Below are positions 4,692 to 54,213 of a stretch of 64,000 bases of DNA, piece by piece; the stretch's first letter is position 1; every line of letters begins with the position of its first letter. Where the stretch lies: positions 24,788,201 to 24,852,200 of the forward strand of contig CM034548.1 in assembly GCA_020055645.1 (NCBI GenBank), read 5' to 3'. Source of the stretch: Tomocerus qinae. Taxonomy: Eukaryota > Arthropoda > Collembola > Entomobryomorpha > Tomoceridae. The notes below the pieces were generated by a model. That model made no database searches. It was not told the DNA's origin and worked only from the letters and a program-made list of their open reading frames with translations. The translations under genes and the position numbers were made by a program.

Positions 4692-7600
4692 GTAAGACAA
4701 CACTTTCAAATCTTCGCTTGAATTATCCCCTCGACATTTTTCATTTCACTTTTATTTTTAAGGGGCAAAAAAGATTCATATGAGTAGAATTCATACTTTA
4801 TTTTTAAATATACACAATAGGGAATATTGGGAAATTACTTTCTATGGATTCATTCTAAATTTTTAGAGTTTCATTCATCATTTTAAACCAAGGATTGCAA
4901 TAGAGAAGGATAACATATGCTTGAAATCGATATGATAATTGGCGATTAGATCTCAAGATTAATTTCCATGTACATTTAGAGGATATTTGGTTCTTATACT
5001 AAGCTTTATCATGAGGTTTACTTCATCTGTCATTGATTGATTAGTATAATGAAGGATTGACTGCATGCATTATTCTAGAACGGTAATTGTCACGGTTAGT
5101 TGATGAAGACGTGAGGATTTTTGCAAAAGTGCATATATACATCGAAGGGAGTGTTAGTTAGAATATGTATGATATATAAAATTATATAGGTCTATATTTC
5201 TGACGCATGTGTTTTACTACTAGGGTTTGATACAATTATATTATGTAACACAATCTGCATTGTGCATTAGGCAGGTTGGGGCTTTTAATGTGAAATACCA
5301 TGGCAGTTGCTAAATAAATATCTTTAAAATAAAACACTTGTGCCATTGCCCACAAAAAGTGGTTGGTAGAGAGGGATTTTTGATGGAGATTAAAAGGATA
5401 GTTCAACTCTGCATCAACAAGAAGTGCATATTATACGTATGTATTGTAAGATAGAGGAGACTTGAGCTAAGAAATAACTAAATATGTAATGCAGTGTACT
5501 TACAAATACATAATACAAAAAGAGTAATATGCCATGAAATCTTAGCTCGGGCGTAGCACATTGCTCTCCCATTCGTGCAAAACTCGAGAAGTCGTCATGG
5601 TTTACTACACTACTGACTTTGATAATCTTTCCAACCTGAAAAATCTTGTGACCCTTGATTTTTAATGTAGCATTGTACATCAAGCCATGTAATCACAAGA
5701 AAGCAGCAATTCTTCTGTGCCGTCTCTCCGTATAGCCGTAGCTTAAGAGTACTTGTAGTATATATAGATACTCCTCTGCGCCTCTTCTCCTCCTTGTCAG
5801 TCACTCAGCTCAGCCTCCCTGTTATCTCTCATATATGTTGCTGTGGTATTTTCTTGTTTTAACCAAAGGTGAATTGCATGCTGATTCCGATGCTCACATT
5901 GTAGATTGCAACACATTATGAAAGTATTTCATATGTGAAACACACCTGTGATATGTGAGAGCCACTTCTCCATATAGATACATACACACTAATGAAATAA
6001 ATAGGGACACTCGAGTCAAGAACGTTCTGAATTATTACACTCTACCAACTTCGTGTGCACTGTAATATATTACTAACAATAAAGAACCTAGGTGAGCTAC
6101 AATTCATTTAGTTATTACAATACATTTATTCTTCCTTAATCTTCACCAAGGAAGAATCTTCTATTCATACACATTGTACCACCTAAATGTACATTTATTC
6201 TACACTTATGAATACCTAAGTATTTTATGTTCTATATGGCCACTACTAAATTACTTGATCCTAGTCTGCTAAAGATGCACTACTAACAGTACAGAGGGAT
6301 TTATATAGTAAACTTGATATCTATATACTACACGACTACTGTTATAGACAAGTAATAGTATTCCTACTTAATCGACACAGACTTGAGACAATACCTTACC
6401 GTTAGATTTTAGTTTTTACTACAAGAGATTGAATAGTGATATAGTGTAGACTAAATATTATAAGGCATTATTATATTACACGTTAGAGTGTTAAAGGTTA
6501 ATTATAACTAAAACAGAGCATAGCCGACAACCGAGTTAGCTTTGGGTGTACCTTGCACATTCACATCAAGATGCAAAAGAGAAGCTTTGTTCCAGAAAAT
6601 GAGATACTGCATCTCTGTCTAACTGCATGCTATACAGTTTATCCGTTCATTTTCGATTTGCAATATCTAGCTAAATACTCTACATATATAAATAGTACCT
6701 AGAAATACACATTGTATAGTAAATGCATCTTGGCACGTAATTAACTTCATTCCTTGTCTTGACCGTCGACTCCTCTTGTAGTCTGTGCATAAGTTAAAAA
6801 TTCATCAGGTCATCTTCTTCATTAACTGCCGCAATTGAAATAACTTGGAAGGAGTAGTGACCTTACCTTACCTGCCCATTTACATACAGAACAGTTGTTT
6901 GATATCAACCTATATTCCCAAACTAGCACAGACATTTACATAAACTCTGTAAAATATAATAGAACAGAGACGGAGACAGAAGGGAAAGGCAGGTTCATTA
7001 CTATGCTTAAGCAACCTGAGTAGTTGTATTTCATTTTGGTACCTAAATACGTAGAATTCGAAAAGTTACACATTTACACTTGTTATATATCAGTGTTATT
7101 ACTCATTTGATTTTCCTATAGCTGGCATATATAGGTTCATTACCATTCACATACATATTATAACTTGCTGAAATTAAATTGTCAGAGTCAGAATAGAAAC
7201 CTTCATAAACAAAAGTTTGATCGTGTTTTAAGCTATCGTATTTCGGATCAAAAGCAAATATTTAGTTTATAATTAGTAATTAGCTCAAGCAGTATTATGA
7301 AAACCATATACTGTGTATTGGTAATGCTAGTAGGGGTCGTCTAGTGCATAAGGCCACTATCATTACAATACCTAAAATAAACAATATTGTAAAGAAAGGA
7401 AAAACAATCTCCTAAAATTCAGATTTCGAATTTTGAAATGTTTTTTTAAATCGATGCTTCCCTCTACTGTGGCTTTAGATTTGGATAATGTTTCGGTTAT
7501 TAACGCCATGCAATTTTTTGTAAGTTGACGAGAATATAGTACAGAGCCTAGCTTCATCTATATTTATTTAATTAGTGCGTATATTTTAAATAATAGCTCA

Positions 7601-37600: not shown

Positions 37601-40600
37601 CGACACTCTACTCCACACTAGTATATACTGGTAGTCTTTTATAGCAGTGCTATATATATTTATCCAAGGGAGGACAGGGATAGGGGATGTGAAATAACGG
37701 GAAATAATATGTATGGCATATCCGAGATATTGTGTCGATATAATAGTCATCTGCATCGTCGTGTTCCATAACACACGAATGTGAATGCCAAAGTAAAAGG
37801 ACTGGCAGCCGCCCAGTTCCAGAGTGAAACTCGAGGAACGTTCATGTAACCAAAACCAAACCGACAACGAAACGGGTCGGCTTCTAAGCTCAGCTCAACC
37901 AATTCGGCTGGTTTGGTTAGTTTGGCTTAGTTTGGCAAGGATCGAGCCGGATGAAATAGACAGACGTATTTACCATCAACTAAACCTACTCTAGTATTTA
38001 CTCCTATAATATACAGGGCTAGGCACTCATACCAAGTCCTCACTCACTCACTCACGCTTATTCCATATTCCTGGATATATTTATCATGGGGTATTCCTCG
38101 CGTGGAGGCGGCAGGCAGTGCCGTGGCAGGCAACTGTAGCAATGCACGGCATGCCAGCGAATTCATTTGCCCATCATTGATTCTTTGGAGGGAGTCTAAG
38201 CTGGCCTCTACCATTTGTTTCATGGTGGATACCCATTATAGAGCATTTTCCTTCTAGCATGATTCCTTGAGACAAGTGGAGTAAATGGGCCGTGGATTAT
38301 CTATGTCCCCCGCTCCCTAAATTATTTTGTGTCCTCTCCAAACAAGCGAATGCCAATCCAGTTTATGTATTTGCTCTTCTTCTCATTTGCATCATCAAAA
38401 TGAATTAAATAACGGACATCTTACCATAGCGGCAAAGGCAACCGATCAATACGTCCTAACGTGACATTTTTACTGGCAGCAAATGAATGTGCGCCTATAG
38501 CCTCGCTAATCTCTTCTATAATATACACTCAATTCTATATCTGCACGACTATCTGTCTCCTCGCTATTATCATCCCATTCTTAGTAACTCCTCTAATCAG
38601 CTCAACTTTCTTGCCTGTCTTCTTTCATTTTTACTTTTCTACTTTCACGGAAACTATATCCAAATAACTTTCTAATACCAACATCTAAACAGGTATAGCA
38701 CTAAGGATTCCCTACCCGCACTTAGATATGTAATTAGCTACCTAGAAAATAACTACCTTCTAAAAATGATGCAAGGCTCCATTCCCATGCCTTTAGAAAA
38801 TTAAATTTTTATGGCCTGTCTTTTTGTCCTACTTAAGAATTTCATTTGCCTGGTTAGGCAATTTATCTCGTCTCTTTTACTAAAGTTGACAGTTCGAGTA
38901 AATACTTACCCACCGCTTATAACTATATAGCATTTACTATCTCATTCATTAGTGTACACATCACATGGATAAATCATTCAAATCTCTACAATTGTACATT
39001 CCTACCTGACGACTATAATCACAAATGCATTATGATAATTTTAAATATCAAAAGTTACAGGGCCACTAAATTCCATACAATATTTATTTATGCTTTCTCC
39101 AGCTAATGGTATCTCTCGTTAAGCTAAGCCCTTCTATCTGAGGCTTAAGCAAATCTCATACCGTTCTAAACACGTTAATACTTCATATGGCAATATAAGT
39201 TGTGAGGTTCTCTAAGCATCTAAATATAATATGTAATAACGCCAGCTGCATTCATGTAGGCATCAAAAATAATATCAAACATTTAATTTGAAAATAATGC
39301 AGACATGCAGATAATAATATGCATCATTAAATAATAACATAGGAATGCAATATTTAAGTACTTTATATCTATATCATTCATTAAATTCATTCAAAACACT
39401 AGCAGAATTGGCATTTCATTTATTTAATAATATTATTGCGTATTTTACAATTTTACTAATTAGGATATTTAAAATGTCGAATTTCAACTAACTGGTGATT
39501 ATTTTCTGTTACAGGTGCGAACTTTATTTGTAAGTGGACTACCAATGGATGCTAAGCCTCGAGAACTCTACTTGCTGTTCAGAGGATACGAGGTATGATT
39601 TAACACGTTATGACGACGAAATAAAGAATATTTTAATTGCTCCCAAGAATCATATCAGAAGGAAGCATTGAAGCCAAAATATTATAAATACCATTCTACA
39701 GATAACATGATTTTTTAATGATGTTTCTCAATTTTAAAAATTGTATAAGTCTTCTGTGCATTACATAATTAATAAGTAGGACGTAATGATATTATTTCCG
39801 TAATTGCATCATGAATTGTTTCTCAGTCTATATAGTAAGGTAGGGACTCTGATTTAAACAATGTGAGAAGTGTGTAGCTGGGAAGAATATGTTTTACCAC
39901 AAGATTAGGAGTAAAGCTCCTTTGTAATGGGCATCTAGGATGGAGATGCTTTTCATTTCATTTAGTTGAGAAGTTCTCGTTGACATATTATTAGAGAAGC
40001 ATGTGCATGTGAGACTAGGGAATTGGTGAAAGAGAGTAAGAGATAGTAGATAGGGGAGTATAGGTATAAGGTGACGTATTTACATGGTCTAATCCGCTTT
40101 CTCTTGTAGGGCTATGAAGGTTCTCAACTAAAAGTTACAAGTAAAAATGGAAAAACGTCTTCGGTGAGTTTATCCTGTTCCTTATTCTAAAGAAACAATT
40201 TATTTCCTCGAGTGTAATGTACTCGGGTGTATTTACTTAATGTCTTGACTCTTTTCAGCCCGTGGGGTTTGTTACGTTCACTTCTCGTGCAGAGGCTGAG
40301 GCTGCTAAGCAGGTTCTTCAGGTGGGTGCCCAACACTCTTCCTCAACTCCCTCCTCCCTTATTAAACCTAATGTCAAACTGATTTAAAATTCCAGGGTGT
40401 CCAGTTTGATCCGGATTTACCTCAAACGATCCGACTGGAATTTGCCAAGAGCAACACGAAAGCGAGCAAGCCGAAGCAGCAATCGCCTCCAGCCGCTGCT
40501 CCACATCCCGCAATGATTCACACGTTGACAGCACGTAAGTCCTCGCAGCTACATGATAGATGTTTGCATTCCAAGAAATGATGTATTTATAGGAAATGCT

Positions 40601-43600
40601 AATTATGGTTGGATGGGGTTTAGCGTTAGGAGGTCCGTTTTTCGCCGGCGGTCCCGAACTGTGGCCCCCTCCATTGGCGTACACAGGAGCTGCAGCTGCA
40701 GCGGCGGCGGCTGCAGCAGCGGCGGAACTTCCAGCCGGCCTTCAAGCACCAACATTGGTTCACCCTGCCTTACATCCACAGGTGCCTCTTCGCTCCTTCC
40801 TCTGACTATCTTCCCCCAACTCTCGCCTGACTTCCGGTTCCTCTCAGTCCTTGAATGTGGATGAGGCACTGGACTCTAGTCCCAACCGTCTGGTGAACTT
40901 GCCATCGAGTCCAGAGTCGTGCGGCTCTCCTCTAACGCCCCCTTCTCATCTCTTGCCCCATTCAGGTTTTCTCGTTAAGGCTTCACTAGGATCTCCCCTC
41001 ATGATGGACCATCATGTCCATGCGGTGAACACGGGTGTTCCCCATCGTCAAAATACAGTAGGATTTCATCCCTCGTACAGCCTTTTCTCTAGTAAAGTTT
41101 TATCGTACTCATTTGTAATTTGGCCTACGTGGCAGCTCCTAGCACTGGCACAGGCTCTGCCCTTCATTCACTCATCTTCAGTATTGTACTGTACTGTTGT
41201 AGTCTTCACGTGTATTGCCAATTTGCCAGCCATCCTCTCTTTATTATTATACTCTACATTAAGTCATCTCTCTCTCTCTCGCACACATTCATTTATATTA
41301 TTATAATACTAACTAATATTAACTGCCTCCTGTCTCTTCTCTCGGTCAGTCTTTATTATTGTCTCTATTAGACAACTCTTACCTTCTCCCCCAATGGCAT
41401 TCACTCTTTTTGCAGGGCATTCTTTTTTCATAGTCAATCTGCCATATATTTAATTCTATGTAGCAGTCATTTATTTTAATCAAAAAATATCGGTCTCCAT
41501 CCTGCTGGGCCAATAAACGGTTTCAATAAACGGCCACATCCCACTTTATATCTTCTATACTCTTTTCGTACTTTCTCCTTCACTTCCTTCCTGCCACTCA
41601 CAGTCGCAGTCAATCAGCCACACAAAAACTATCATTATCATCTTGAATGAACTTCCTTCAGTTTCAGGCCACATTTGCTGGCAGTATGAGTCGCTATTGT
41701 ATTAATTGATTAGTTGTTTCCGATTTATACATGTTATATAGTATATTCAACTGAAACTGAACTAAGTAAGACAACGTGATACAAAAATAAATGGCAGTTT
41801 GCAAATACGTAGCTCCTACTGTTTTATATTAGTCCCCACTAGGACTGCCACAAAAATATTGTACATAGTATTAAGAATAGGGATCCACAATTCACACTAA
41901 TTCTATTTAGAACGACAAAGTTTCTTCCTAACAGTGAAACTGAGTAGTTTAATGTATATACAGCGATAGTCTGTACATAATATGCAAATAATCATGCAAA
42001 ATTGCAAAGCAGCTCTTTTCAACCAAACTTCCACAACTCTATGATTTCTAATGTAGTAATTGCGTGGGAAAGACAAATAGATTCAGTGCCCCTCCTTATT
42101 CGTTTAGCAAGCGATTCTGATAAAATTGCCTATTTTTATGGCATTGCAGGATTGGAAAGTTTAAGGCCCATCCACAAGACAAGGTGGAAATCCTTTTTCA
42201 CAGCAAATTTAACTCTTTTATTGTCTACTGCAGTCTCCTTTTGTTTCCATATTCCAGGTAAATACAAGTTGCATCCCTGGCTACTACATCCCAGGCTTCA
42301 GGAGAAAAGTTTGCCCAGATTTGTCCGTGAGTGCTCACCTCTCTTGACAGCATTCACTTTCACCTGCTTTCCCAACTTTCACCCAATTATCCTAATTCTC
42401 CAGTCTTTCTCATGCACAAACGTTACTGAATGAGGGTAAAAAAATTCGCCTTGGGAGATTTCCGCACTCTTAGCCGTTTCATTAAAGTTTTCGTTGATAC
42501 AATTTTGAACCTGCCATAGGATTTTAGTTTTACCAATTTAGTTTTAAGAGAAACATTGACATTTCCCCGCTAGGAAAATAATAATAGGAATAAAACCCTT
42601 CAGCCCTTGAGCAAGAATATTTTGATGATATAACATTTTGACTCATAGTCTCTGAACAGATGCATCCTTTAACGCCTTTAGAATTGAGATTAATAAATAG
42701 ATCAGAATCGTAAGTTAGGGAGGCACACCAATGATTTGACTTTCCCTCGTATTTACGTATCTAATGCACGGAGAGGAAGCAAACACTCTAGATTTGTTTG
42801 TATTATTGCTATTTATAAATTGTGTAGAGTATTAATTACGTAATCTCCGTATAAACTAATATGACTAACTTTTATTACCCTCCATAAAGATTAGCCCCTG
42901 GCAGTTACAACTCGTGCCATACAACGCGTGCCTAAACTACCTATACGCATTGTTATGACTTAACTGACTAACAGAGCCTAGTCTTTTGTATTTCTATTCA
43001 CTTGTTCCACATCCACACGTGCCCTTAAGCGAGGGGATTGAAATGTGTATGAACTGTCCACCTATTCTGCCGTGCCATATTTTACTTACACCAATCCGAA
43101 ATGACCTTAGTGAGTAAAACCACACAAACTTTAATGTAATTCCGTCCATGTGCTACTTACAATACAATGTCACCACTCCATTGCCACTCATGAGCAACTA
43201 ATTGTAAGTTACATGCTAGACTAACTAATTCAGATCATTTAGAGGATTTTGCTCACATTTCGCCAAGCCGAAGCTACCACTTCACTGGTCAGTAGGAAGT
43301 TCACCTCGCGAGCCTCTCACCTGAATGCCTTTCCCACCCAGTCACCCACCCACCCACACCCACCCACAAGTAACCAGTATCGTAATTATTGTACTTTTCA
43401 CACGCCATCCTTCTGAGCAAATGTTCAAGTCCATGCACTGTGCCTTACTTACCACAACTCCCAAATAATATCACTGTAGCCCTGTCTTAATTGTTTTGTA
43501 GTTTGCTACAACTCATTTGAACTCATTCCCTTCGTTTACTCTACCTTTCTCAGCCCTTCGGGGTTATTTCTGGTCAAAGCTCATCTACTTTCTCTCTAAT

Positions 43601-46600
43601 TACAGCAAGCTCTGACTTTGGGAGGACCAACAATCGGGTCTCTGCATGCAAGCATTCCACATCTTCTCCCTTCGCCATCCTTGGCCTCTCCCGTTGGATC
43701 CGCATGCTCTCAGTCTATGGGGAGTCATGCTCCCTGCTCCACATTATTCGTTGCTAATCTTGGAGCTTTTATCACCGAACAAGAGTTGAAGGATATTTTT
43801 GGCAGGTAAATTTTATTCTCTTATTTTTGCTTTGTTTACAGTCTTATCAAGTAATTACCCCTATTATCATTTTATTAAAGCTAAAACACATGAATTCATA
43901 AACACATTATGCAGATACTTCTCTATCACTCTAAAAGTGTATTGTTCAGGGACAATTAGTGTCAGCGTAAATGACAATTTCATTTAGTACAAGATCAGTA
44001 GCCTTATTAAATGCATACAACTCGGTTGATGTTCTAGATAAGCAGAGAAAAGTTGGCATGCAGCCTTTCTCTCCATAACCTAAAAGAAGGGCAGAAAGTA
44101 TTTGCATTATGAACTGAAAATGTTTAAAGGCTATGAGGACATTTTGCATATGCCAGTTATGTGTTTGCTTTTAACACCAGTTTTGTATTCGTGCATTGTA
44201 CTATAGAATGTTATTTGGGTTGGAGAAGTAATGGGTTGTCTCTGCTATGCTGAATCTATTTACTAGAATAGGCCGGCACATAATAACGCGTGTAGCCACA
44301 TGTGTATTTACATTAGGCCCAGTTAGCTCCTGCTTACACGTAAGTAGTTGCTCTAAAAATATTATGGTGTGACAAAATGGATCCGTTGTCATTGGAGTAA
44401 AAGGGATTGTTTGGGAGATAGCCATATTCACATCCAATGCATAGAAAATAAACAGTAACAATAGATCTCTCACAGCAGTAATGGTGTATGTAATAATAAT
44501 AGAAGAATAGTTGAGTTGTGTGCTTCTCCTTGTTCCTCTGTCCTAGCTACTCCAAAAAAAGGATTCGCCAGAGAAACTTTCCCCCTTGCTTCCTTTCAAG
44601 TCGCCTTCAAAAATGATAGGTAACAGAATTGAGGGTAGCCTCGTCGTTTGCGACGCATGGAATTCTTTCTGTGCTGTTTTATTATTGCAGACATCATTAC
44701 AAGAAATATTACAACAATGCAATAGACTTTTCAGCTTCCAACTCAAGTCCACTTTCACATCAAACTTTCACCGTGTAAATGTCACGTCCATGCAATAAGT
44801 AGGGAATTGTGGTAGTCTCCTTATTTCTCCTCCTATCAACTCTACTCGAGTTGTTGAAAAACACCCGACCAGACGGGTGGGTGGGGTATTTCAGAATTAA
44901 ACCAAGAACTATACACTGCTAATGCTTACATACATAGTAGTACAATGTATAATAAACTTTAGTGCCCGTGCTTCCTACTTCCAGCTTTGTTACCTTCTCC
45001 TACTACTACGACGTGTATCCTGTTCACATACTTTCTAAGTATTACATATCCTGCTCTTAGTATGTACTATTATATGGTACTTCTATATACTAAGTTCCTC
45101 CGTCTTAAAAACTATATATATATATATCTATATGTATGTATGTATACAAGTTATGTCAGTCTCTAGTATTTTCATCTATTGGAGTAGCAGATATATATGT
45201 ATTTCATTCAATGCTATAGTTTGACTGATTCCACTACATCTACTCCGTTTATTTGGAGTCTCGAGGAGTGTAGAGGTAGAAGTTAGGGAAAGTATTACTG
45301 GGCATGGCATGGCAATCCTGACGATAGCTCGTTTTCTCCCCTTCCTCTTTCTATCGCCAACTGTAACAAAGGAGTGGTGAATAATTCAGATTAATACACA
45401 TGAAATATGCAAGGAAAGGCGAAATTAGAGCCGCGGTTCGACGGCAAAAGAAAACTGGGTGTTTGTCTGACATGAGTGCCTCGTGTCCCTATATACCCAA
45501 CACTAACACATACAAACTGCAATCTAATGTAACTCGCTCCCAGCATTCGGACTCACTTGGATTCCCATCCTATGGGTAAACATGGAAATACACGTCTTAA
45601 CTTTTCTCTACAGGTACAAAAACCTATAAGCAAAGATAGAAATCCGGTATTTACACAGATACTATCCCATTCACCTCCGATCCTATTTGCAATAAGTGAA
45701 AAGTCCATAGTCCAGCAGAAAAACAGAATCCGCGGAAATGGTAAGCGCGTACTTGTCTCATTGTCAGTCTTCTTACTCGTCTATCTTCAGGCGGCAGTCC
45801 CACTCGTCTTCTATTGTGCAGCTTTTCCCATCCCACTAATACTGAATGACTAGTCCTATTCTATTTTATGTCCTTTACCTCTATACCCGTTTCTTCATTC
45901 AACTATATAATGTAAATAAGACGCAGTTAAAGTCAATTCACTCGAATAAAGAAGACTACGGCCATTAGCTACCTACATAATTTACTGCCCAATATGTACA
46001 ATCAATCTTAAGTAAGTGGATGGCACACATTGCTATAAGTGACGGCTACCCGATGGCTTAAATATAGACCAATGACCATCATTTCCACTTTTCATTTTCT
46101 ATACCTCTATATATATTCCGAGGACACGTCAAAACCTATTATATAAGAGACCGTTACAATACAATATAAATGCTCTACAAAATAAATAGGAGTCAATATT
46201 TATCTGCTCTCCCACAAAAGTTTGTTTTTCCTACTGACGAGATATGGGTTACTCCTCTAGCCTGTAACCTGTAACTCGCTACATTTATATTATTATTATG
46301 ACTATGATGTGAATTGACATGACCAAATTCTCTATAATATGATGTACTATTATTATGTGTATTAATGTGATTTGACCCGATACTTCACCTTACTCTACTA
46401 TGCTGACCAAGTCCCTGCCAATAAAGTGTCCGTGTGTCACAGGCAGATGTAGGTAAATGAAGATGTGCACATTTATTAAGATTCAATTATAAAAGACGAT
46501 GGGCCAATTGTAGAAATAAAGATAATTAGGTGAAGGTGTAATTGTACTCGTAGCTACTTCCCAGTCTCCGCCTGTTCCGCTCCACTACTCCAACACGACT

Positions 46601-49600
46601 GATCTGCACACACTCAGGTCTGTAGGTTTTCTTCGTTCTTCCACGGCGAGGTGATCTTATTTGTTTGGTGCCGGGGCTAGAGGTAGATAGTTAGCCTCTG
46701 GCCTTGTGTGGAATAGAAGATGGCTCTGAGGGCTCTTCAGTATTCCCCCTCAAAAAGGGAAGTTTACCGGGCAAAGACCTTTGTGAGGTGAACTTCCTTC
46801 TGGGTATTGATGCTGATGCACCGCTTTCTGCGGCGATTTCTTCCGGAGATGAGTTGCCGTACTCAAATTGCGATGTTTTCCTGGTGGGAGATTTTCTTGC
46901 ACCGCTGACTGCGGCCGAATTTGCTGGAGGAGATCTTTGAGTACCGCTTACTGCGGCTGTGCTTGAAGATGGAGATCTGTGGGCACCGCTTACTGCGGCT
47001 ATCCTTAATTTGGGTGGTATTTCCGAAGTCGTCTGGTTTCGGACACGATTTTGCAGCCTAATGTGACGTTTGGCGCTGCAGTGGAACTTTTCTTGTCTCC
47101 AGTGAGGGTTTTCGTCGCGAAAATTCTGCACAAATTCGTTTTTCTTGTTCTTGAAGTGAGAAGAGGAACCACTTGCCGTGACTGTTTTCACATTTTAATA
47201 GCCTCCTTCATGGGATTAGTTGCAGAGTACATCGGATTTTCATTCCAACGCCTTTGGTGATCAAGAGAAGCCTGATGGTTATCTTGAAAGCTACAATGCT
47301 GTCGGCCACTTGCTACGTAGCAAGGCAACGTCCTTGTAATTCATCGCACCACTTACCGTGGCGAAGATCTGAAAATATTAAACAAAAATCCACACTAGGG
47401 GTGGAGAATGGGGGAAAATTAAGGTTTTAATTTTAAGAGAAGGAGTTTTAAAATGAAAAATTAAACTTTATAATGTTAGGATTCTTGGTGGTAATTTTCT
47501 TTGGGAAGGAAAATCAGAATCAGGAATATTAGTTAAAGAAAGATTATTTTTGATTAGATTTTGAGTACGTTTTTTCCTGAAGGGATTTAGTGTGCACTAT
47601 AGGATCAATTTTTCTTAGCCTATTTTTAATAATATGTCTATTTACAGATTTCGCAAGTGCTGAGTGGAATGGAGTGCTCGCACTCAATTTCAGTCAGTAC
47701 GAAGCGAAAAAATATTTTCCGAACAACCTAGATTTTATTTGTAAAATTTTTTTTATGTTATGATTAGTGAGTTACAACGATTGCTGTCCGTGGTTCCAGG
47801 AACTTCTCATGCCACGACAGGAAATCTGTAAAAACTCTATCAATAATTAGGTGTGTGACCATAGCTTCAAGTGTTATAAATAATACCAAAATACAAGACT
47901 GCTGTTAGTAGCTCCGGGAACTTCTCCTACTACAACAGAAAGTCTAAAACATTTAGTAAAAACATTTTTGGAATGAGACCTTATATTCAGAATTATGTGA
48001 TACCGTATTACCTTTTGCCTACATTACTGGCGTGAGAGCCTTATATTATTACTTCAAATATCGGCTTGAGAGCCTGGTACAAATTATTTCAATTATTGGC
48101 GTGAGAGCCTTAAAATCTTATACTTGCATTGTTGGCGTGAGAGCCTAAAATAGTTTGTTTAAATGATTGGCGTGAGAGCCTAGTACAAATAACTACAATT
48201 ATTGGCGTGAGAGCCTAATATTCCTATTACTGGGGTGAGACCAAGGAATCAACTGCTAACATGGACCGGAAGCTAATCCTAAATACAACCCTGCATGTAG
48301 CTACACAAAATATTAATTATGAAAACAGAATTTTTAAGTTAAATGGTAAAAAGGAATTGTTTTAGGAATTTTAGTGAGGGATAAATGGATGTTTCTGATT
48401 GAAGTGAATTGCTATTTTGATTTTAATCGTGTCTTTTTGTTCTTCGGAATTTTGTTGCTGTTGCCTGTTGTCGCACCACTGACTGTGGCGGTGATCCTCA
48501 AGGGGAAGTTAAACTGCAGTGTTACTTGCATACTGCCAATGGTTATGCCCGACTCCAGTAGACGTTTCCCATGTAATTTTTTGTTAGATTGTGGATGTGA
48601 TGAGTTTTGATAGTTTCTGTTTTGCGTATGAATGGTGACCGTATAGGAATTATATTGAGTATTATCTGCATGTTTGACTGCTGTAGCTGTTAAGTGAGTA
48701 GCTTCGATCGTTTTCGGTGGGGTCATTTTGAAGAGAATGTTGACTTCCTCGAATCGATGCCATTTGGTTGTACTTGCAATAGTTGTAATGTTAGGTATTT
48801 TTCTTTTGAAAGGCAAAAATTCAGGCTGTGTTAGGTTTTCTTGTATTGGAATAGACATCGTTGTAGCCATTGAAGTTTGTCGCCTTGATGTCGGGGAGGG
48901 TGCAGTACTAGTTATGGAAATAGGTTGACCAATTTTCGTTGCTTTAGACTTGACCTTTGGTAGACTTCAGTGCTATATCTCGATGTTTGTTGTAACTGGC
49001 GTGTCTTTGGTCTCTGTTTCTGTACTGATAAGCATAAGACTTCTTCATGGATAAGGTAATTGAATGATTAGACTTTTATGAATATTTGTAACTACGTAGT
49101 TATTTTAAAACTTCGGAAAGGTTAGGCTTGACTCAAGAATGTAGAGTTTCTTTTTCTCACAGACTGTGATGATGAAAGTTATAGCTAGGTCGAAAGCAAC
49201 TTGAACAAGTAAGATAGGTTTAGATTTGAATTTTGATAAATATTATTAGTGTAATGTATCAATCAAATAAGGTTGAAGTTTGAATAATGTCTGTCAGCAC
49301 CATTTACTATGGCAGTAAATTTACTCATGTGTGGTAAATTATTGAATTGATAAAGTGAAATGAAATTTGAACATTGTAAGCACCATTTGCTATGGCAGTA
49401 AGTAAATGTAAATGAAATATACTACATCAATCAAATAAGAAAGTTTTGAATAATGTCAGTACTATTTACTATGGCAGTAAAATATTATTAGTGTAATGTA
49501 CTAAGAAATAAAACTTGAATAATGTCTGCACCATTTACTATGGCTGTGACTGTACGGTCATGTAAATGTTTGACTACTTTTTTGAGTGAGATCAAATACA

Positions 49601-52600
49601 TAGGTTTGTTAGGAAATGATGAGGTTGAGTGTGTTGGAGTAGGAGCGGGGAGACTAGGGGTTGTAGATAATTTAAATGTAGCCGTAGTGGCTTTACTAAT
49701 TTAATTTGAATAGGAATGTATTGAGTTCCTTAACTGTCGTTTAGAATTAATACAGTCTGGCGCCATAAGGGCAGTATTATATTGTACTTATAAATAAAAT
49801 GATTAGAAAGATGGGGTGAATAGAATAGAATAGAATACATTATACACTGAACATATTCAATTATGAGATAATAACGATTAAATTTTATAATTAAGAATGG
49901 TATTATTATTATGTGTGTATTATTATTGTGTGTACCTGGAGTGGATATTGAACTGAAATCTCTAATATATTTATTGTAGGTGGTTTGATGAGGTTAATTA
50001 TCCTTGTTGGTGTTGTTCTGGTACTGCTGACCGTTTTTTATACGCAGCTGTACCTGAAAATGTCCAATAGGATTAGTAACTTGGTAATTTTAACAATAAT
50101 AATAAATTTCATTCGGTCAAATAAAAATATTCAAAATTTTAGTTTTAGTAATAATATATAAAAATTTCGTTGCTAGACTCTGTCTCGGTAGTTCATCCAC
50201 GTTTGGGCGACAATTGACGAGATATGGGTTACTCCTCTAGCCTGTAACCTGTAACTCGCTACATTTATATTATTATTATGACTATGATGTGAATTGACAT
50301 GACCAAATTCTATATAATATGATGTACTATTATTATGTGTATTAATGTGATTTGACCCGATACTTCACCTTACTCTACTATGCTGACCAAGTCCCTGCCA
50401 ATAAAGTGTCCGTGTGTCACAGGCAGATGTAGGTAAATGAAGATGTGCACATTTATTAAGATTCAATTATAAAAGACGATGGGCCAATTGTAGAAATAAA
50501 GATAATTAGGTGAAGGTGTAATTGTACTCGTAGCTACTTCCCAGTCTCCGCCTGTTCCGCTCCACTACTCCAACACGACTGATCTGCACACACTCAGGTC
50601 TGTAGGTTTTCTTCGTTCTTCCACGGCGAGGTGATCTTATTTGTTTGGTGCCGGGGCTAGAGGTAGATAGTTAGCCTCTGGCCTTGTGTGGAATAGAAGA
50701 TGGCTCTGAGGGCTCTTCACTACTCTAGAAATTAAAGATAACAAAACTGGTAATAAATATCACAAAGTAATGAGAACAAATCCCCTAAAAATAGACTGAT
50801 CGACACAAATCCAGTTATCTTAGTTCACAGACAAAAAAAAATGTCTTAGGCATTTGCGTCATGATTTCTTATAGTGACCACAGATACTAAATTAGTGACA
50901 GTGATAAATATGTAACAATCTGTAGGAGCAGACTAATGATGTGGTAATACAATGTAATTGACATGTTGGAAAGTAAAGAGCTGTATGTATATGCTTAAGA
51001 TATTTTGTTACAAATCGATGTCTTCTCCCACTGCAGTGCACTGGACTGTAATACTTACTGCTATATAGAATGAGAGAGCAAAGAAACTTGACCAGAATGT
51101 ACTACGCTACTTTCTGAGAATATCATCCACGCAATTTCAAGTATTTATACGCTCATAAACATATCTCTTGGTTCGTCGCACTGCTAAGTGAAAAGTGCTT
51201 CGATGCTTGAGGACCTCCCGCGTTAGGTAAACCTATCATAGGAAATAAAAGAAAGTCAACCAGATATTGTATATTTAAGTGCATATGTGATCCGTGCATT
51301 TGGGAGGTCGTTCCTGTCTGTCTGTAATGCACGTAAAGTATGTTAGATAGTCACCTTATAGAGTTAAGAGGGGATGAATTCATGCCATTTATATAGTGAC
51401 TACTACTTATAGGACTGATACACTCTCACATCATTTGCTTTATGATGTAACCATTCAGGTAGTGGGCTGATAGGACGAGAAGTTAACCAATGTCAATGTA
51501 TTTATGGCTCTACTACTTACCGGCGACGTACACTGAATAGAAGTTACATGCTAAGGAACAGAATAGAAAATAATGTTCTGACTTTCCTTTCCCCTTTCTA
51601 ATATCACAGCATTTCCATTTATTCTTTTCATATCTTACCAGTCCTATTTTTCAGGGCTCTACTCAAATTATCATGTGCTATTTTTATCAATTTCCAGCAA
51701 CCAACGGTTCCAGTTTTTCCTGCAGTGAATTTTAATATTAATCAATTCAAAAAATAAGGAAAATTGAAATCTGCCTTAAAGTGTTTAGTTTATTCATAAT
51801 TGAAACACGATTTATTCGGTCTTAATGTAAACGTGCAATATAAGATGTTTTAAGAACAGAAAAACAATGAAATAAGCAAGTACATACACTGCGTAGTATT
51901 CAATACAGGCTTTAAAAATCTAAAAATAAATTTTTGACTACAGCTATCGAAGATATTGTATAGAAAAGTTATTTTTAATGGGTGGAAACTGGTTCTTGAT
52001 AAATTAGACAAAGGGGGAATGAAAAGTCGGGAAATTCCGGTCTTTTTATCGTAGGTAGGCAAATATGTATAATGCAGACCCATGGGTCAGCGGAGCATGC
52101 TAGTATGATATAGCGTGATCTTCATGAATGTTTCAACTCGGTTGCCTTTTTTCAGACGAGCAAGTAATAGAATAGAATTTTTTTTCGTTGGAGAAGACAT
52201 GCGAATGACTGCTTGGAGATACTTCTGTTCTCACTTTTTCTTTCTATTATGTTTCTTATTGTTAGATAGTGCATGTGGAAAGGGAGGCAACGCCAGAATT
52301 GTGAAACGGTGCTCCAGTCTTTATGACGATGGTATTAGTTTATGTGGAAGGAGAGAGTAAGTGGTGCTTTCTCCAACGGGAGAAAGTCGAAGCATCAGAA
52401 ATTAAGGTTCCCTTGACTCTTCTAAATAAATTTTAGTACGGAATATTTTTGCCACGATAAATTTAAATGCTTTTCCCCTGTTCTTACTCCGACAGACTTT
52501 GAGATAGCCGAAGATCCTCGTATGATTCATATCAAAGTGTATAGAGCCAAAGGATTGTATTTTTAGAAGTATTCAAATACTTATGACAAGTACACATTAA

Positions 52601-54213
52601 TAGATAGTAAAATCATAAGTATGTACTTATGGTTTCAATCCTCAAATCTACTCCATCGAAATTTATATCTACTGTACTTATGATGTGCACGGAAGGAAGT
52701 TGGATTTAGCACTTGATTGTAGGATTCCTTTTATAGACTTTCTGATCAACACTAAAAATATCAGTGCCAAAGGTAATCTTTTTTGGATGGGATTTTGGCT
52801 GATAGGGCATCCGCATTGCTGTCTCAATGAACTCATTCTCCGTCCTATAATGATAGAGACTTTTCAAAAGAACTCTACTGTAAATATATCAAGGAATGTT
52901 GTATGAGTCAGAATGAACTCTTACATCTTTAGAACGAAATTAAAGCCGGTGTACATCCTTTAATTTGTCGTAGTGCTCTGCTTTGGGCATGTTGTCAATC
53001 AGGTTTAACCTAGTTTCTTCCTATTTCTTTAATGATTTTCCCTAGTACACTAGTAATGCAAGTACCTGAGATCAATAGGGTAGTAATTATATTATGAAGA
53101 CATAAAATAAACGTAATTCTGATAAGTATCAGCGTATGGCATACTTGATAAAGAATGTTACTGATTGTAAGTCGACTACATTTGCATTGGGAGGATGTAT
53201 CCGTCCCAGCTGACAATGTATTCAGCAATAAAAAGAAAAGGAAAATAGTGCTAAGCTTTTATCATGATGAAAGTTTGTTGAAATCTGTGTGAGCTGGTGG
53301 ATTTGTGACAAAGTGTTTGCTGATTTCCGCAGTTAGGAACCTACATATATACTACGTGTATATAAATACTACGTGCGCACACTAAAGTTTCACTACTCGA
53401 TGGAGTAAACGAAGTAAAGTACAGCCTCGTTAGTCAGGAACTGGGAGAGAAAGCCCCGCAGTGCTTTTTATTACTTAAGCGATAAATTCTTTATAATAAA
53501 ACCAGCATAGAAAACTACTTACCATTTCTTTAGGCATTGCAAATTATAAATATACATACAAAGCAGGAAGTTACTTTCTGTGGAAATATTTAACCCTTTG
53601 CACTTGAACAGCATTATCAAAAAGATAATCTTTCGTTCACTGTACATAGCTATTCTTATTATCAACTCATTTCTAGCACAAAGGTAGGTCATAATATGGC
53701 ACTAACACATTGGCGGCAGAGAAAGGTGTGGAATAAATAGGACAACGTCTGGGCAATCGATAGGTTTGGCATAATTGTGAGTGAGTAGTATGCATAAAAT
53801 AAAGTGAGATGATCGTAAATAATGGAAGGAATGTTTTTTTAATTAGCTTTCCAGGATTCAGCAGACTGCGGTTGCACACAAAGGGGGGTAGCCCAGTGGC
53901 GTTCGTCGAGTATGTGGACGTCCGATTCGCAACACAAGCGATGGCAGCTTTGCAAGGATCCTTCTTGCGGTACTCGGACCGAGGCGGAATCCGCATTGAG
54001 TACGCGAAAACGAAAATGGCGGAGGTGAACGGTCCGAACAGTATCCTTCTGGCGACAGCCAACAATGTCACAATGAACGGACACCACCCTCAGTACAACC
54101 ATGTGAATCATGTAAATAACTTCAATGTTATGACCAGTACTCCTCAATCCCGCCCTGATCTTTGTCCCACAACCAGTGCTCTTTTGCATCGCCACCTTGT
54201 CAATGCCGCTTGA
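4626..54213 (+). CDS. cpo/mec-8-like: Couch potato / MEC-8 / RBPMS family RNA-binding protein, two RRMs (whole gene span)
   Basis: Spliced coding region: 4626-4691, 39515-39592, 40110-40163, 40259-40321, 40396-40534, 40624-40781, optional 40848-about 41024, 43606-43805, 53847-54213. The protein is about 374 aa without the optional exon and about 433 aa with it. RRM1 begins at residue 23, with RNP2 LFVSGL (about 26-31) and RNP1 PVGFVTFT (about 67-74), and ends [12 protein letters not shown] Pro-rich and polyalanine linker follows. RRM2 begins near residue 230 with CSTLFVANL (RNP2) and SPVAFVEY (RNP1), ending [17 protein letters not shown]. Family knowledge: these proteins bind CAC/GCAC motifs in RNA and regulate splicing, stability and localisation; worm MEC-8 is a splicing regulator with the same two-RRM layout, and couch potato shares the TSKNGK loop. 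All internal phases are consistent across introns. Intron 1 (34.8 kb) and intron 8 (10 kb) are unusually long and carry transposons. Orthology to the family is firm; the exact isoforms are inferred. Confidence 0.93.
23549..23616. repeat. Short tandem repeat, 30-bp unit
   Basis: Two near-identical 30-bp units (starts 23549 and 23579) and the beginning of a third (23609). Each unit contains the interrupted palindrome TCAAAGTGCTTTGA followed by a related inverted ACTTTGA, so the array can fold on itself. No coding potential. Confidence 0.8.
25721..26697. mobile_element. MITE, 977 bp, TA target duplication (Tc1/mariner-like)
   Basis: The left end reads GGGGAGACTGGGGATAGTGT... (25721-25745) and the right end is its exact reverse complement (26673-26697), giving perfect 25-bp terminal inverted repeats. 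TA dinucleotides flank both ends (25719-25720 and 26698-26699), as expected for target duplication by the Tc1/mariner superfamily. No transposase-length frame is present, so the copy is non-autonomous. The core ATAGTGTACGAA occurs eight times (one copy with a single change), in both orientations, from end to middle. A perfect 38-bp palindrome sits at 26475-26512. Superfamily assignment rests on the TA duplication and end sequence only. Confidence 0.9.
26475..26512. repeat. Perfect 38-bp palindrome inside the MITE
   Basis: Two head-to-head copies of TTCGTACACTATACCCAGT meet at AGT|ACT (centre 26493/26494) with no spacer. Each arm repeats the subterminal core of the element, so this looks like a fused inverted pair of the element's own end motif. 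Confidence 0.95.
27333..27557 (-). other. Unassigned open frame with exon-like character
   Basis: A 74-codon minus-strand frame starts [20 protein letters not shown]. Its first 47 codons have an amphipathic, coding-like composition and end at a possible donor, CAG|GTGGGG; beyond it the composition degrades. It matches no family I recognise. It could be a remnant exon of an old insertion in the intron, a nested gene on the opposite strand, or chance. Confidence 0.2.
39515..39592 (+). CDS. Gene 1 exon 2 (start of RRM1, RNP2)
   Basis: Acceptor ttctgttacag, donor GAG|gtatga, phase 0 to 0, 26 codons. Encodes [20 protein letters not shown] then LFRGYE: beta-1 with RNP2 (LFVSGL) and helix alpha-1 of RRM1. 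The segment [15 protein letters not shown] is diagnostic of the RBPMS/couch potato/MEC-8 family. Confidence 0.97.
40110..40163 (+). CDS. Gene 1 exon 3 (RRM1, TSKNGK loop)
   Basis: Acceptor ctcttgtag, donor TCG|gtgagt, phase 0 to 0, 18 codons ([18 protein letters not shown]). The TSKNGK insertion before RNP1 is shared with couch potato and MEC-8. Vertebrate RBPMS lacks the NGKTSS part, which favours an ecdysozoan-type protein. Confidence 0.96.
40259..40321 (+). CDS. Gene 1 exon 4 (RRM1, RNP1)
   Basis: Acceptor cttttcag, donor CAG|gtgggt, phase 0 to 0, 21 codons. [20 protein letters not shown] then Q carries RNP1 (PVGFVTF) and helix alpha-2 of RRM1. Confidence 0.97.
40396..40534 (+). CDS. Gene 1 exon 5 (end of RRM1 and linker)
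   Basis: Acceptor aattccag, donor GCAC|gtaagt, ending in phase 1 after 46 codons. Begins [20 protein letters not shown], the last strand of RRM1, and continues into the basic and Pro/Ala linker [18 protein letters not shown]. Confidence 0.96.
40624..40781 (+). CDS. Gene 1 exon 6 (GPELW block, polyalanine, LVHPALHPQ)
   Basis: In frame from phase 1 it encodes [20 protein letters not shown], then TG, 12 consecutive alanines and [19 protein letters not shown], a conserved linker block in this family. The acceptor is tttag ending at 40623; a second AG six bases later (40629) keeps the same frame. The better-looking tttatag at 40592 would shift the frame and lose the conserved block, so it is rejected. 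Donor CAG|gtgcct at 40781 is phase 0. Without splicing the frame runs on seven codons (VPLRSFL) to a stop at 40803-40805. Confidence 0.87.
40848..41024 (+). CDS. Gene 1 optional exon 7 (Ser/Pro-rich linker), 3' end uncertain
   Basis: A strong acceptor (cttccggttcctctcag) ends at 40847. The phase-0 frame reads [20 protein letters not shown] then [20 protein letters not shown], plausible low-complexity linker rich in SP/TP sites. Phase-0 donors compatible with exon 8 are at 40974 (gttaag), 41025 (gtgaac) and slightly further on. The frame stays open to 41306 but becomes hydrophobic and intron-like after about 41090. The exon may be alternative. The stated end is one choice among these donors. 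Confidence 0.5.
41025..43605 (+). other. Intron 7
   Basis: AT-rich with pyrimidine-rich stretches. Contains a (CCCA)n-like tract at about 43333-43368. An open frame at 42002-42433 is spanned by a candidate acceptor at 42258, but it shows no recognisable domain and its phase relation to the gene is not supported, so it is not called as an exon. Confidence 0.6.
43606..43805 (+). CDS. Gene 1 exon 8 (Ser/Pro linker and start of RRM2)
   Basis: Acceptor tctctctaattacag, donor GGCAG|gtaaat, phase 0 in and phase 2 out. Encodes [20 protein letters not shown], a Ser/Pro stretch, then [20 protein letters not shown] and IFG. LFVANL is RNP2 of the second RRM. The split codon AG|C restores serine with exon 9 ([11 protein letters not shown]). 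Confidence 0.96.
45112..45147. repeat. (TA)n/(TATG)n microsatellite
   Basis: A run of TA dinucleotides passes into TATG tetranucleotides. Simple sequence without coding potential. Confidence 0.85.
45614..45740 (+). other. Candidate cryptic or poison exon in intron 8
   Basis: A strong acceptor (aacttttctctacag, ending 45613) and a strong donor (GGAAATG|gtaagc, from 45741) bracket 127 nt. One frame is open ([15 protein letters not shown]...). The length is not a multiple of three. If included between exons 8 and 9 of gene 1 it would give IFG-RYKNL then a stop, truncating RRM2. It could be an unproductive exon, part of an unseen transcript, or chance. Confidence 0.25.
46235..46739 (-). repeat. 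LTR (3' LTR in element orientation)
   Basis: Left copy of the 505-bp repeat with TG...CA termini. It contains AATAAA on the minus strand (46472-46477), a plausible polyadenylation signal for the element's own transcript. Confidence 0.96.
46691..47191 (-). CDS. Element ORF, basic protein with AVSGA peptide repeats
   Basis: A 166-codon minus-strand frame runs from inside the element across the PPT and about 49 bases into the LTR. The protein is basic and Ser/Pro rich. It has three tandem units of about 14 residues beginning [20 protein letters not shown] and [10 protein letters not shown], and a fourth, AAESGASAS. The DNA under each repeat is one of the covarying 13-nt hairpins. No Gag, zinc-knuckle or enzyme motif is seen. 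It may be a real accessory protein of the element or a by-product of repeat expansion. Confidence 0.4.
   Translation of the reverse strand: MKTVTASGSSSHFKNKKNEFVQNFRDENPHWRQEKFHCSAKRHIRLQNRVRNQTTSEIPPKLRIAAVSGAHRSPSSSTAAVSGTQRSPPANSAAVSGARKSPTRKTSQFEYGNSSPEEIAAESGASASIPRRKFTSQRSLPGKLPFLRGNTEEPSEPSSIPHKARG
46740..46755 (-). other. Polypurine tract of the LTR element
   Basis: Read on the minus strand the bases just before the left LTR are TTTTGAGGGGGAATAC. The purine run GAGGGGGAA is in the right place to prime plus-strand DNA synthesis. Confidence 0.7.
46821..46998. repeat. Hairpin repeat family A, cluster 1 (CCGC stems)
   Basis: Four 13-nt hairpins at 46821-46833, 46902-46914, 46944-46956 and 46986-46998. 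All have the stem CCGC/GCGG and 5-nt loops (TTTCT, TGACT, TTACT, TTACT on the plus strand). The last three are spaced at 42 bp. Confidence 0.9.
47349..47361. repeat. Hairpin repeat family A, single copy (CCAC stem)
   Basis: CCACTTACCGTGG: same 4-5-4 geometry and position of GCA before the stem as the other copies, but with CCAC/GTGG replacing CCGC/GCGG. Confidence 0.85.
47783..47821. repeat. Hairpin repeat family C, copy 1
   Basis: Outer arms CTGTC and GACAG, inner arms GTGG and CCAC with a one-base bulge, around an apical part containing TCCAGGAACTTCTC. Copy 2 lies 118 bp downstream. Confidence 0.75.
47901..47939. repeat. Hairpin repeat family C, copy 2
   Basis: Shares TCCGGGAACTTCTC with copy 1. 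Its arms read CTGTT/AACAG and GTAG/CTAC: the arm changes relative to copy 1 are compensated on the other side. Confidence 0.75.
47968..48245. repeat. Tandem repeat family B, about 35-bp period, GGCGTGAGAGCC hairpins
   Basis: Five or six clear units and degenerate end units. The core GGCGTGAGAGCC (GGC/GCC stem, GTGAGA loop) recurs at about 48029, 48063 (GGCTTGAGAGCC), 48098, 48134, 48169 and 48204, with end variants near 47969 (GGAATGAGACC) and 48231 (TGGGGTGAGACCA). Cores are separated by about 23 bp of AT-rich, partly similar sequence. Located inside the LTR element. Confidence 0.92.
48412..48870 (-). CDS. Element ORF of unknown function
   Basis: A 152-codon minus-strand frame starting [18 protein letters not shown] and ending with a basic tail. 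Thr/Asn/Lys rich, no recognised domain. Near its C-terminus [13 protein letters not shown] resembles [13 protein letters not shown] of the downstream element ORF, so the two frames share a duplicated segment and may descend from one ancestral protein. It could be a degenerate Gag; no Gag motif supports this. Confidence 0.35.
   Translation of the reverse strand: MATTMSIPIQENLTQPEFLPFKRKIPNITTIASTTKWHRFEEVNILFKMTPPKTIEATHLTATAVKHADNTQYNSYTVTIHTQNRNYQNSSHPQSNKKLHGKRLLESGITIGSMQVTLQFNFPLRITATVSGATTGNSNKIPKNKKTRLKSK
48476..48488. repeat. Hairpin repeat family A, single copy (CCAC stem)
   Basis: CCACTGACTGTGG, stem CCAC/GTGG with loop TGACT, again preceded by GCA on the plus strand. Confidence 0.85.
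49300..49543. repeat. Hairpin repeat family A, cluster 2 (CCAT stems) in a tandem array of about 70-83 bp
   Basis: Copies at 49300-49312, 49383-49395, 49462-49474 (one stem mismatch) and 49531-49543. The stem is CCAT/ATGG and the loops are TTACT or TTGCT. Each copy is preceded by a related TTGAATAATGTC-like segment and followed by CAGTAA or similar, so whole units are duplicated. Spacing 83, 79 and 69 bp. Confidence 0.88.
50030..50064. repeat. Hairpin near the primer-binding end of the LTR element
   Basis: GGTACTGCTG pairs with CAGCTGTACC (one mismatch) around a T-rich loop. It lies about 150 bp inside the element from the PBS-like site, where leader structures of LTR elements often lie. Role inferred from position only. 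Confidence 0.5.
50191..50214 (-). other. Primer-binding-site-like sequence of the LTR element
   Basis: Directly next to the right LTR; on the minus strand it begins ATTGTCGCCCAAACGTGGAT. This resembles the TGGCGCCCAACGTGG type of tRNA-complementary site, with a TGG to TGT difference and one extra A. The primer tRNA is not assigned. Confidence 0.65.
50215..50719 (-). repeat. LTR (5' LTR in element orientation)
   Basis: Right copy of the 505-bp repeat, identical to the left copy except for one base (A at 50312). Followed by the CTAC target duplication. Confidence 0.96.
52199..52566 (+). CDS. Candidate nested gene: small secreted Cys-containing protein (two exons)
   Basis: Proposed exons are 52199-52356 and 52437-52566, joined across an 80-bp intron (GA|gtaagt ... 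taaattttag|T), giving 95 aa. The N-terminus [27 protein letters not shown] has a strong hydrophobic core typical of a signal peptide. The mature part has four closely spaced cysteines in [27 protein letters not shown] and then a Cys-free tail ending GLYF. A dibasic KR precedes the first of these cysteines. A very good acceptor (gccttttttcag) ends at 52155, consistent with a 5' UTR exon. LCGRR recalls insulin-like B chains and FCHDKFKC recalls LDL-receptor class A starts, but neither family is complete here, so no function is assigned. It lies within intron 8 of gene 1 on the same strand. The frame, splice sites and signal peptide are seen; the gene itself is inferred. Confidence 0.45.
53847..54213 (+). 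CDS. Gene 1 exon 9 (rest of RRM2 and C-terminus)
   Basis: Acceptor ttttttaattag; the first base completes AG|C (Ser). [20 protein letters not shown] then [20 protein letters not shown] and [15 protein letters not shown] complete RRM2 (RNP1 SPVAFVEY). The tail is Asn/His rich ([17 protein letters not shown]) and ends [10 protein letters not shown] with TGA at 54211-54213. An internal phase-0 donor (CAT|gtaaat at 54112) could remove the last 33 codons. Confidence 0.95.

Follow-up and report, generated by a model that had tools for sequence, protein, structure and literature searches.

The LTR element and its hairpins in the window

A young LTR element lies on the minus strand of the window, the stretch of 64,000 nucleotides of the Tomocerus qinae genome that was analysed. 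Its LTRs (46235-46739 and 50215-50719) are 505 bp long with a single mismatch between them, and they are bounded by a CTAC duplication, which agrees with the young LTR element claimed in the preliminary description. The parts of the element other than its hairpins are as follows.

46231..46234, no strand: target-site duplication CTAC, left copy
46235..46739, minus: 3′ LTR, 505 bp, TG..CA ends, 504 of 505 positions the same as 50215-50719
46691..47194, minus: open frame, by eye like the C-terminal part of the HRDC ORF of the relative L175
46740..46756, minus: polypurine tract, GAGGGGGAA followed by TAC, ahead of the 3′ LTR
48412..48966, minus: open frame whose start is by eye like the leader of the L173 and L175 gag ORFs, without the capsid part
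50194..50214, minus: primer-binding-site-like stretch, ATTGTCGCCCAAACGTGG, after the 5′ LTR
50215..50719, minus: 5′ LTR
50720..50723, no strand: target-site duplication CTAC, right copy

On its minus strand the LTR holds one AATAAA and one TCAGT initiator-like site (read in the left LTR). A polypurine-like tract precedes the 3′ LTR in most relatives compared (L174 is without it), and the stretch 3′ of the 5′ LTR, a candidate primer-binding site, also recurs in most relatives. Since both stretches lie on the minus strand and recur in this way, the minus strand is the sense strand of the element. The internal region spans 3475 bp. No pol (PR-RT-RH-IN) was found among its frames, while the relative L192 has one, and the window copy gave no match to gag either. 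A Pfam search with seven ORFs of the element gave no family reaching the cut-off, the single sub-threshold match being TRAPPC10 (E 0.23). In the window as a whole, none of 4227 Rfam families matched at the gathering score and a tRNA scan returned nothing. By its content the window element would be a non-autonomous LTR element, which appears from its near-identical LTRs to have transposed recently without a pol of its own.

Exons were seen on the plus strand at 39500-43800 and 53809-54213, with one RRM match (7e-4) just under the Pfam cut-off. Presumably they belong to an RRM gene of the couch potato/RBPMS type, and the LTR element would then sit in an intron of this RRM-like gene, antisense to it.

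Ten hairpins with a 4-bp stem had been reported within the element. All ten are present where they had been placed and with the stems given for them, namely CCGC/GCGG four times, CCAC/GTGG twice, CCAT/ATGG three times and a single CTAT/ATGG with a mismatch, and there is a weaker eleventh besides. The four Watson-Crick pairs hold, but the sense-strand stem is five pairs long, as an invariant flanking G and T add an outer G·U pair in 10 of 10 copies. The sense-strand unit is GCCxy-RGNNA-y′x′GGT, with the G·U pair outside and four Watson-Crick pairs inside.

46818..46834, minus: hairpin GCCGC AGAAA GCGGT
46899..46915, minus: hairpin GCCGC AGTCA GCGGT
46941..46957, minus: hairpin GCCGC AGTAA GCGGT
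46983..46999, minus: hairpin GCCGC AGTAA GCGGT; pair 5 in relatives is C-G, a U-G wobble or U-A
47166..47182, minus: eleventh hairpin, GTCAC GGCAA GTGGT, with two wobble pairs; 11.4 bits, orthologous to intact copies
47346..47362, minus: hairpin GCCAC GGTAA GTGGT
48473..48489, minus: hairpin GCCAC AGTCA GTGGT; the same hairpin lies near the gag end in the gag-bearing L175
49297..49313, minus: hairpin GCCAT AGTAA ATGGT
49380..49396, minus: hairpin GCCAT AGCAA ATGGT
49459..49475, minus: hairpin with a C-A mismatch at pair 3; T-A there in most gap-free orthologs
49528..49544, minus: hairpin GCCAT AGTAA ATGGT

Scanned over the whole window, a covariance model built from the ten copies gives them 24.8-29.8 bits, and the next match reaches 12.3 bits. 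The internal region has nine perfect copies, all of them on the minus strand; dinucleotide shuffles yielded 0.01 on average and one at most (n=500). Taken alone, the ten copies pair at 98.0% of stem cells compared to 88.3% in shuffles (0 of 500 as high), and pairs changed on both sides amount to two, the same as in shuffles (434 of 500). Folding of a 133-nt context gave four of the ten copies a pairing probability of only 0.0-0.35, and the folding energies of five window stretches, with z values from -2.2 to 1.1, were uninformative. The energy models, as predictions, do not favour every hairpin site.

The element also holds a second hairpin family, which is unrelated to the first and is an independent line of evidence for kept stems.

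47779..47827, minus: second hairpin family, copy A
47897..47945, minus: copy B of the second family; all 13 pairs kept, three with changes on both sides compared to copy A

When the same 12 changes were placed at random, at least three double-changed pairs arose in 0.5% of trials and all pairs were kept in 1.7%, for a structure that was drawn after both copies had been seen; a shuffle test, weak with two sequences only, gave 69 of 500. The differences between copies A and B mostly recur in other loci of the family, though in L175 and L176 copy A has its innermost pair broken. At 48023-48220 the window further holds an array of approximately 35-nt units around GGCGTGAGAGCC, with degenerate units on both sides and a sense UCUCA that is constant in eight aligned units. 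This array gave no clear pair evidence.

Relatives of the element and pairing across the genome

The 334-Mb assembly that holds the window was searched for further copies. All 33 genome matches of the sense pattern GCCRYAGTAARYGGTGC lie inside copies of the window element (none for the reversed-pattern control), and all 24 matches of GCCAGAGTTACTGGY, the pattern of a CCAG/CTGG stem, lie in or beside loci of the lineage (control 0). With the looser CCAT pattern GCCATAGNNAATGGY, 14 of 62 matches fell outside known lineage loci (reversed control four in all), and the CCAC pattern GCCACNGNNAGTGGYG gave five of 41 outside (reversed control two in all). The hairpin array belongs to the element lineage and not to the window copy alone.

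Twenty regions were fetched and five more later. Four of the 20 were LTR matches in which no hairpin was seen (L185-L188), and these were excluded from the hairpin set. Close relatives carry a gag of the Retrotrans_gag type, which together with the paired LTRs, the target-site duplication, the candidate primer-binding site and the polypurine tract places the element in the Ty3/gypsy lineage. The Gag of L175 matches Retrotrans_gag at 1.2e-6, above the Pfam cut-off, and Arc capsids in the PDB at 2e-9, and its zinc knuckle is below the Pfam cut-off. In six copies of the same family gag is free of stops over the whole query. L175 is a gag-bearing LTR element without pol, and at 4792-5646 it has an ORF with an HRDC match (7.4e-8), in which a CCHC motif was recognised by eye; the nearest PDB matches of this ORF are Rrp6 chains, without significance. 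L177 and L178 (C1:132.229-132.241 Mb) form a tandem array of elements with four LTR matches and three internal regions.

The relative L192 (contig C17) has PR, RT, RH and IN domains and a disrupted gag frame. Its gag is 71.5% identical to that of L175 over 744 aligned bases, and it has the same kinds of stem, with five CC-type hairpins in the 5′UTR, at the gag end and in pol. Two further pattern matches lie past the L192 stretch, at C17:62457 (about 30 bp beyond) and at C17:60998 (about 1.5 kb beyond), and the hairpin of the RNase H region is the same word in a related copy at C1:83.2 Mb. L193 also has five CC-type hairpins, with gag present and no long pol frame. Two other gypsy-type elements, whose Gag is 45% and 42% identical and whose second long open frames of 1192 and 1173 aa are presumed to be pol, showed no CC-type hairpin.

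The preliminary description had proposed to look for covariation at the stem positions among genomic copies. The pattern used to collect hairpins put no constraint on stem positions 4, 5, 11 and 12 and tolerated at most four mismatches among the other 13, which gave 228 candidates from 17 sources. Those with up to two mismatches were all kept and the rest only if their flanks matched, so that 76 were dropped and 152 kept, in 15 flank clusters from 17 sources and with 41 distinct 17-mers. Because candidates were collected by consensus match, pairs 1-3 are biased towards the consensus, while pairs 4 and 5 are unbiased. At these two pairs, 78 of 82 cells in the 41 distinct hairpins are paired, whereas 20,000 permutations averaged 58.5 and never exceeded 68. 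Covariation of the kind looked for is present. Over all stem pairs of the 41 hairpins, 95.1% of cells pair compared to 85.2% after shuffling (0 of 500 as high), and the covariation score is 0.418 compared to 0.216 (0 of 500 as high), with shuffles that ignore the relatedness of the sequences. Structures slid along the hairpin pair at most 68.3% of cells. Two of the five shuffle measures were not outstanding, these being the pairs changed on both sides (3 vs. 2.0; 67 of 500 as high) and further pair types (9 vs. 7.3; 16 of 500).

Pair 5 is CG in 26 of the distinct hairpins, UA in ten, GC in two, UG in two and another combination in one. Other fully paired stems of the lineage are GTCAC/GTGAT, GTCAT/ATGAC, ACCAT/ATGGT, GCTAT/ATAGT and GCCGT/ACGGT, found in a scan that demanded pairing; the same scan also gave two A+T-rich stems, each in single loci. 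Most copies and the pol-bearing relative have CCAG/CTGG at a 5′ site, a stem in which transversions have replaced the two bases of pair 5.

Changes were also counted within 16 groups of orthologous sites, leaving out the L191 and L193 rows and gapped orthologous places. Among 23 variant pair states, each compared to the commonest, three were double changes with the pair kept, 11 one-sided with the pair kept, eight one-sided with the pair broken and one double and broken, so that nine of 23 are broken. Single-arm changes as frequent as paired ones had been named in advance as speaking against the claim; within sites the 19 one-sided changes do outnumber the three double changes that kept the pair, yet 11 of the 19 retain a standard pair. 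The remaining double changes are between sites and not within orthologous ones. Among the places so left out, one hairpin site is decayed in L175, L176 and L179 and lost in L177, L178 and L181, and the CCAG site is missing from three copies. Single sites tolerate damage, which is expected of a redundant array and would equally be seen under weak selection.

Strand, loop and reading frame of the hairpins

Of the 41 distinct hairpins, 37 have G·T as their outer pair, two have A-T and two T-T; some sites of L192 and L193 have G-C there. In the sense RNA all of these except T-T can pair, whereas DNA would be mismatched at G·T and the antisense RNA would have A·C in its place, which argues for RNA as the folded form and for the sense strand. 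Five-pair RGNNA stems are placed in sense rather than antisense orientation, with counts of 9/0 in the window element, 9/0 in L171, 10/0 in L172, 10/0 in L173, 11/0 in L175, 6/1 in L192 and 6/0 in L193, that is, 61 sense and one antisense in seven elements of the lineage. The more distant gypsy elements L194 and L195 have 1/0 and 0/0. Of the 152 hairpins, 151 have G at the second position of the loop and all 152 have A at the fifth, and positions 3 and 4 take all four bases. The RGNNA loop may resemble a GNNA turn.

The hairpins occupy the 5′UTR, gag, the stretch between ORFs, the 3′ ORF and pol, and they do so in different frames. L175, with its open gag, has four hairpins before gag (counting GTCAC/GTGAT) and two between the ORFs. 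Its gag hairpin is in phase 1 and is read as C-H-S-Q-W-C, and the hairpins of its 3′ ORF are in phase 0 and are read as A-A-V/E-S-G-A/T, the reading also of the four CCGC hairpins in the window frame 46691..47194. The gag-end site of L192 reads C-H-R-E-W-H, with CCAT/ATGG in place of CCAC/GTGG. As the hairpins lie in different frames and also outside ORFs, it is the RNA that is kept and not a peptide.

Viral relatives were sought in IMG/VR, where 113 and 19 stretches contain the 17-nt word. Five of the 132 viral loci had several matches, and the four that were translated (L004, L041, L073 and L080, not L102) read ATVSGAAQ protein repeats, so that these candidates were rejected. The 17-nt word can arise by coding alone in such viral contigs.

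One copy of the CCAG hairpin lies close to the head of gag. Of the fifteen loci with this stem 11 were measured, and each of the 11 has a copy whose end is 12-41 nt upstream of an ATG. In the gag-bearing loci whose frames were read, the first ATG in the gag frame is that ATG or lies 4 nt further, and it is a candidate Gag start. A clean gap has removed the gag-proximal hairpin from L183, L191 and the window copy. Of these three, L183 (LTRs 99.8% identical) and the window copy (one LTR difference in 505) appear to have transposed recently despite the loss. The clean losses indicate that the CCAG site is not indispensable.

Probable selection on the stem-loop and its possible reader

The earlier suggestion of selection for a folded form is supported for a folded sense RNA by the covariation, the C-G, U-A and G-C types of pair 5 and the further fully paired stems. 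We consider it very probable that selection acts on the sense-RNA stem-loop. Fold and loop would be kept, while the letters of the stem would drift pairwise. One motif at many sites along the transcript, with one site before the gag head, common to pol-bearing and pol-less members and missing from two more distant gypsy elements, would fit repeated protein-binding sites. Gag is the natural candidate for the binding protein, since it is common to the lineage and a ride in particles is what pol-less members need. The stem-loop would be bound most likely by the zinc-knuckle-like part of the lineage's Gag, which would gather the element RNA through the stem-loops and package it into particles. Copies without gag or pol, such as the window copy, would keep the sites to ride in the particles of partner elements. 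That packaging or assembly by Gag is the reason for the stem-loops is a tentative reading, which we place a little short of even. The explanation as a whole, a stem-loop family of the sense RNA in a Ty3/gypsy lineage that is gripped by protein many times over, likely by Gag, stands about evenly balanced.

The main rival is that a host RNA-binding protein reads the stem-loops, or that they serve translation, stability or export of the element RNA rather than packaging, the copy before gag being a translational control. The closeness of one copy to an ATG in all 11 loci measured and the copies in the 5′UTR and between ORFs suit this rival, and the restriction to a single lineage is equally compatible with it. 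Sites inside gag, pol and the 3′ ORF are, in contrast, needless for control of translation or of the 3′ end, and we regard this rival as unlikely.

The preliminary description had also allowed for a folded DNA form or copying through the hairpin. Such a form would be a DNA dyad to which a dimeric factor binds, or arms made perfect through template switching or through repair templated on the hairpin, and it would have in its favour that double changes perfecting an inverted repeat are the expected trace of templated correction. Nevertheless 37 of the 41 distinct hairpins have an outer pair that is mismatched in DNA, the orientation is fixed to the sense strand (61 vs. 1) and the loop is conserved and asymmetric, so that a DNA form is disfavoured and appears quite improbable. 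Tandem duplication of a unit combined with biased mutation, by CpG decay and AT drift and in the absence of selection for a fold, has several properties of the array in its favour: CCGC to CCAC in one arm and GCGG to GTGG in the other are each a CpG transition, stem GC tracks flank GC in the window copies, and adjacent copies have common flanks and a spacing of 42-83 nt. Neither of these biases, however, accounts for the double transversion of CCAG/CTGG; pairing is above every shuffle, and L192 retains the same kinds of stem in spite of its distance in gag. Moreover, orthologous hairpins are 85-100% identical, and in 10 of 13 site clusters they are more alike than either 15-nt flank (in three they are tied with or below one flank), in a set of hairpins chosen partly by similarity. 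Duplication with mutation bias is consequently disfavoured as very improbable. Hardly credible, finally, is a protein-coding repeat for the peptide A-A/T/I-V-S/N-G-A: although five window copies lie in one frame (A-A/T-V/E-S-G-A/T) and phage-like proteins with ATVSGA repeats yield the same DNA word by coding alone, the gag hairpin is in another phase, further copies lie outside both L175 ORFs, and in the ten window copies the third bases of the GCC and GGT stem triplets are always C and T, whereas all four letters occur at the third base of the triplet that follows beyond the stem. Likenesses to the iron-responsive element, Smaug and boxB sites were dropped, as their defining features are absent.

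Among non-autonomous LTR elements, TR-GAG and LARD are alike in having LTRs, tracts resembling primer-binding site and polypurine tract, and a gag without pol or no complete gene. Such elements have been described mainly in plants, and to our knowledge a repeated stem-loop family is not among their features. A repeated covarying stem-loop in an LTR retrotransposon was not found in searches of the open-licence literature. The bdelloid rotifer LTR elements with a DEDDy exonuclease ORF3, as presented in the passages concerned of PMC5408684, similarly carry an extra ORF with a domain of RNA-processing exonucleases; here Pfam found an HRDC domain only, and no exonuclease domain was found in the ORFs searched. 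Another parallel may be the dispersed packaging signals in the assembly of RNA viruses (MS2 and others), which in the parts of Twarock et al. 2018 (PMC6281560) that treat them are many short stem-loops on one RNA with a common recognition motif, and the element RNA likewise has several stem-loops with a common motif along its length. Those systems are single-stranded RNA viruses, however, whereas here the RNA is that of an LTR retrotransposon and the contact with a coat protein is putative. Retroviral Psi and the encapsidation determinants of Ty1 and Ty3 resemble the gag-bearing family in having stem-loops upstream of gag, but in the respective passages of PMC8396678 and PMC4974528 Psi is near the 5′ end, and here the motif recurs along the whole transcript. 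According to the passage in PMC4974528, the packaging sequences of Ty1 and Ty3 were not precisely defined and the RNA structure of Ty3 was uncharacterized as of 2016.

Little is known of how an LTR retrotransposon singles out its own RNA for packaging. As a proposal that we hold more tentatively than the role of Gag itself, the lineage may use a dispersed packaging code, in which an RGNNA stem-loop in the UTRs and over the coding frames is read by Gag. Members without pol or gag would keep the array for the particles of their relatives, and the hairpin would be the currency of a parasite-of-parasite relation. With a 15-nt motif for which there are a consensus, natural variants, pol-bearing and pol-less users and motif-free relatives, the packaging question becomes directly testable. 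If true, the proposal would show how non-autonomous elements exploit autonomous ones.
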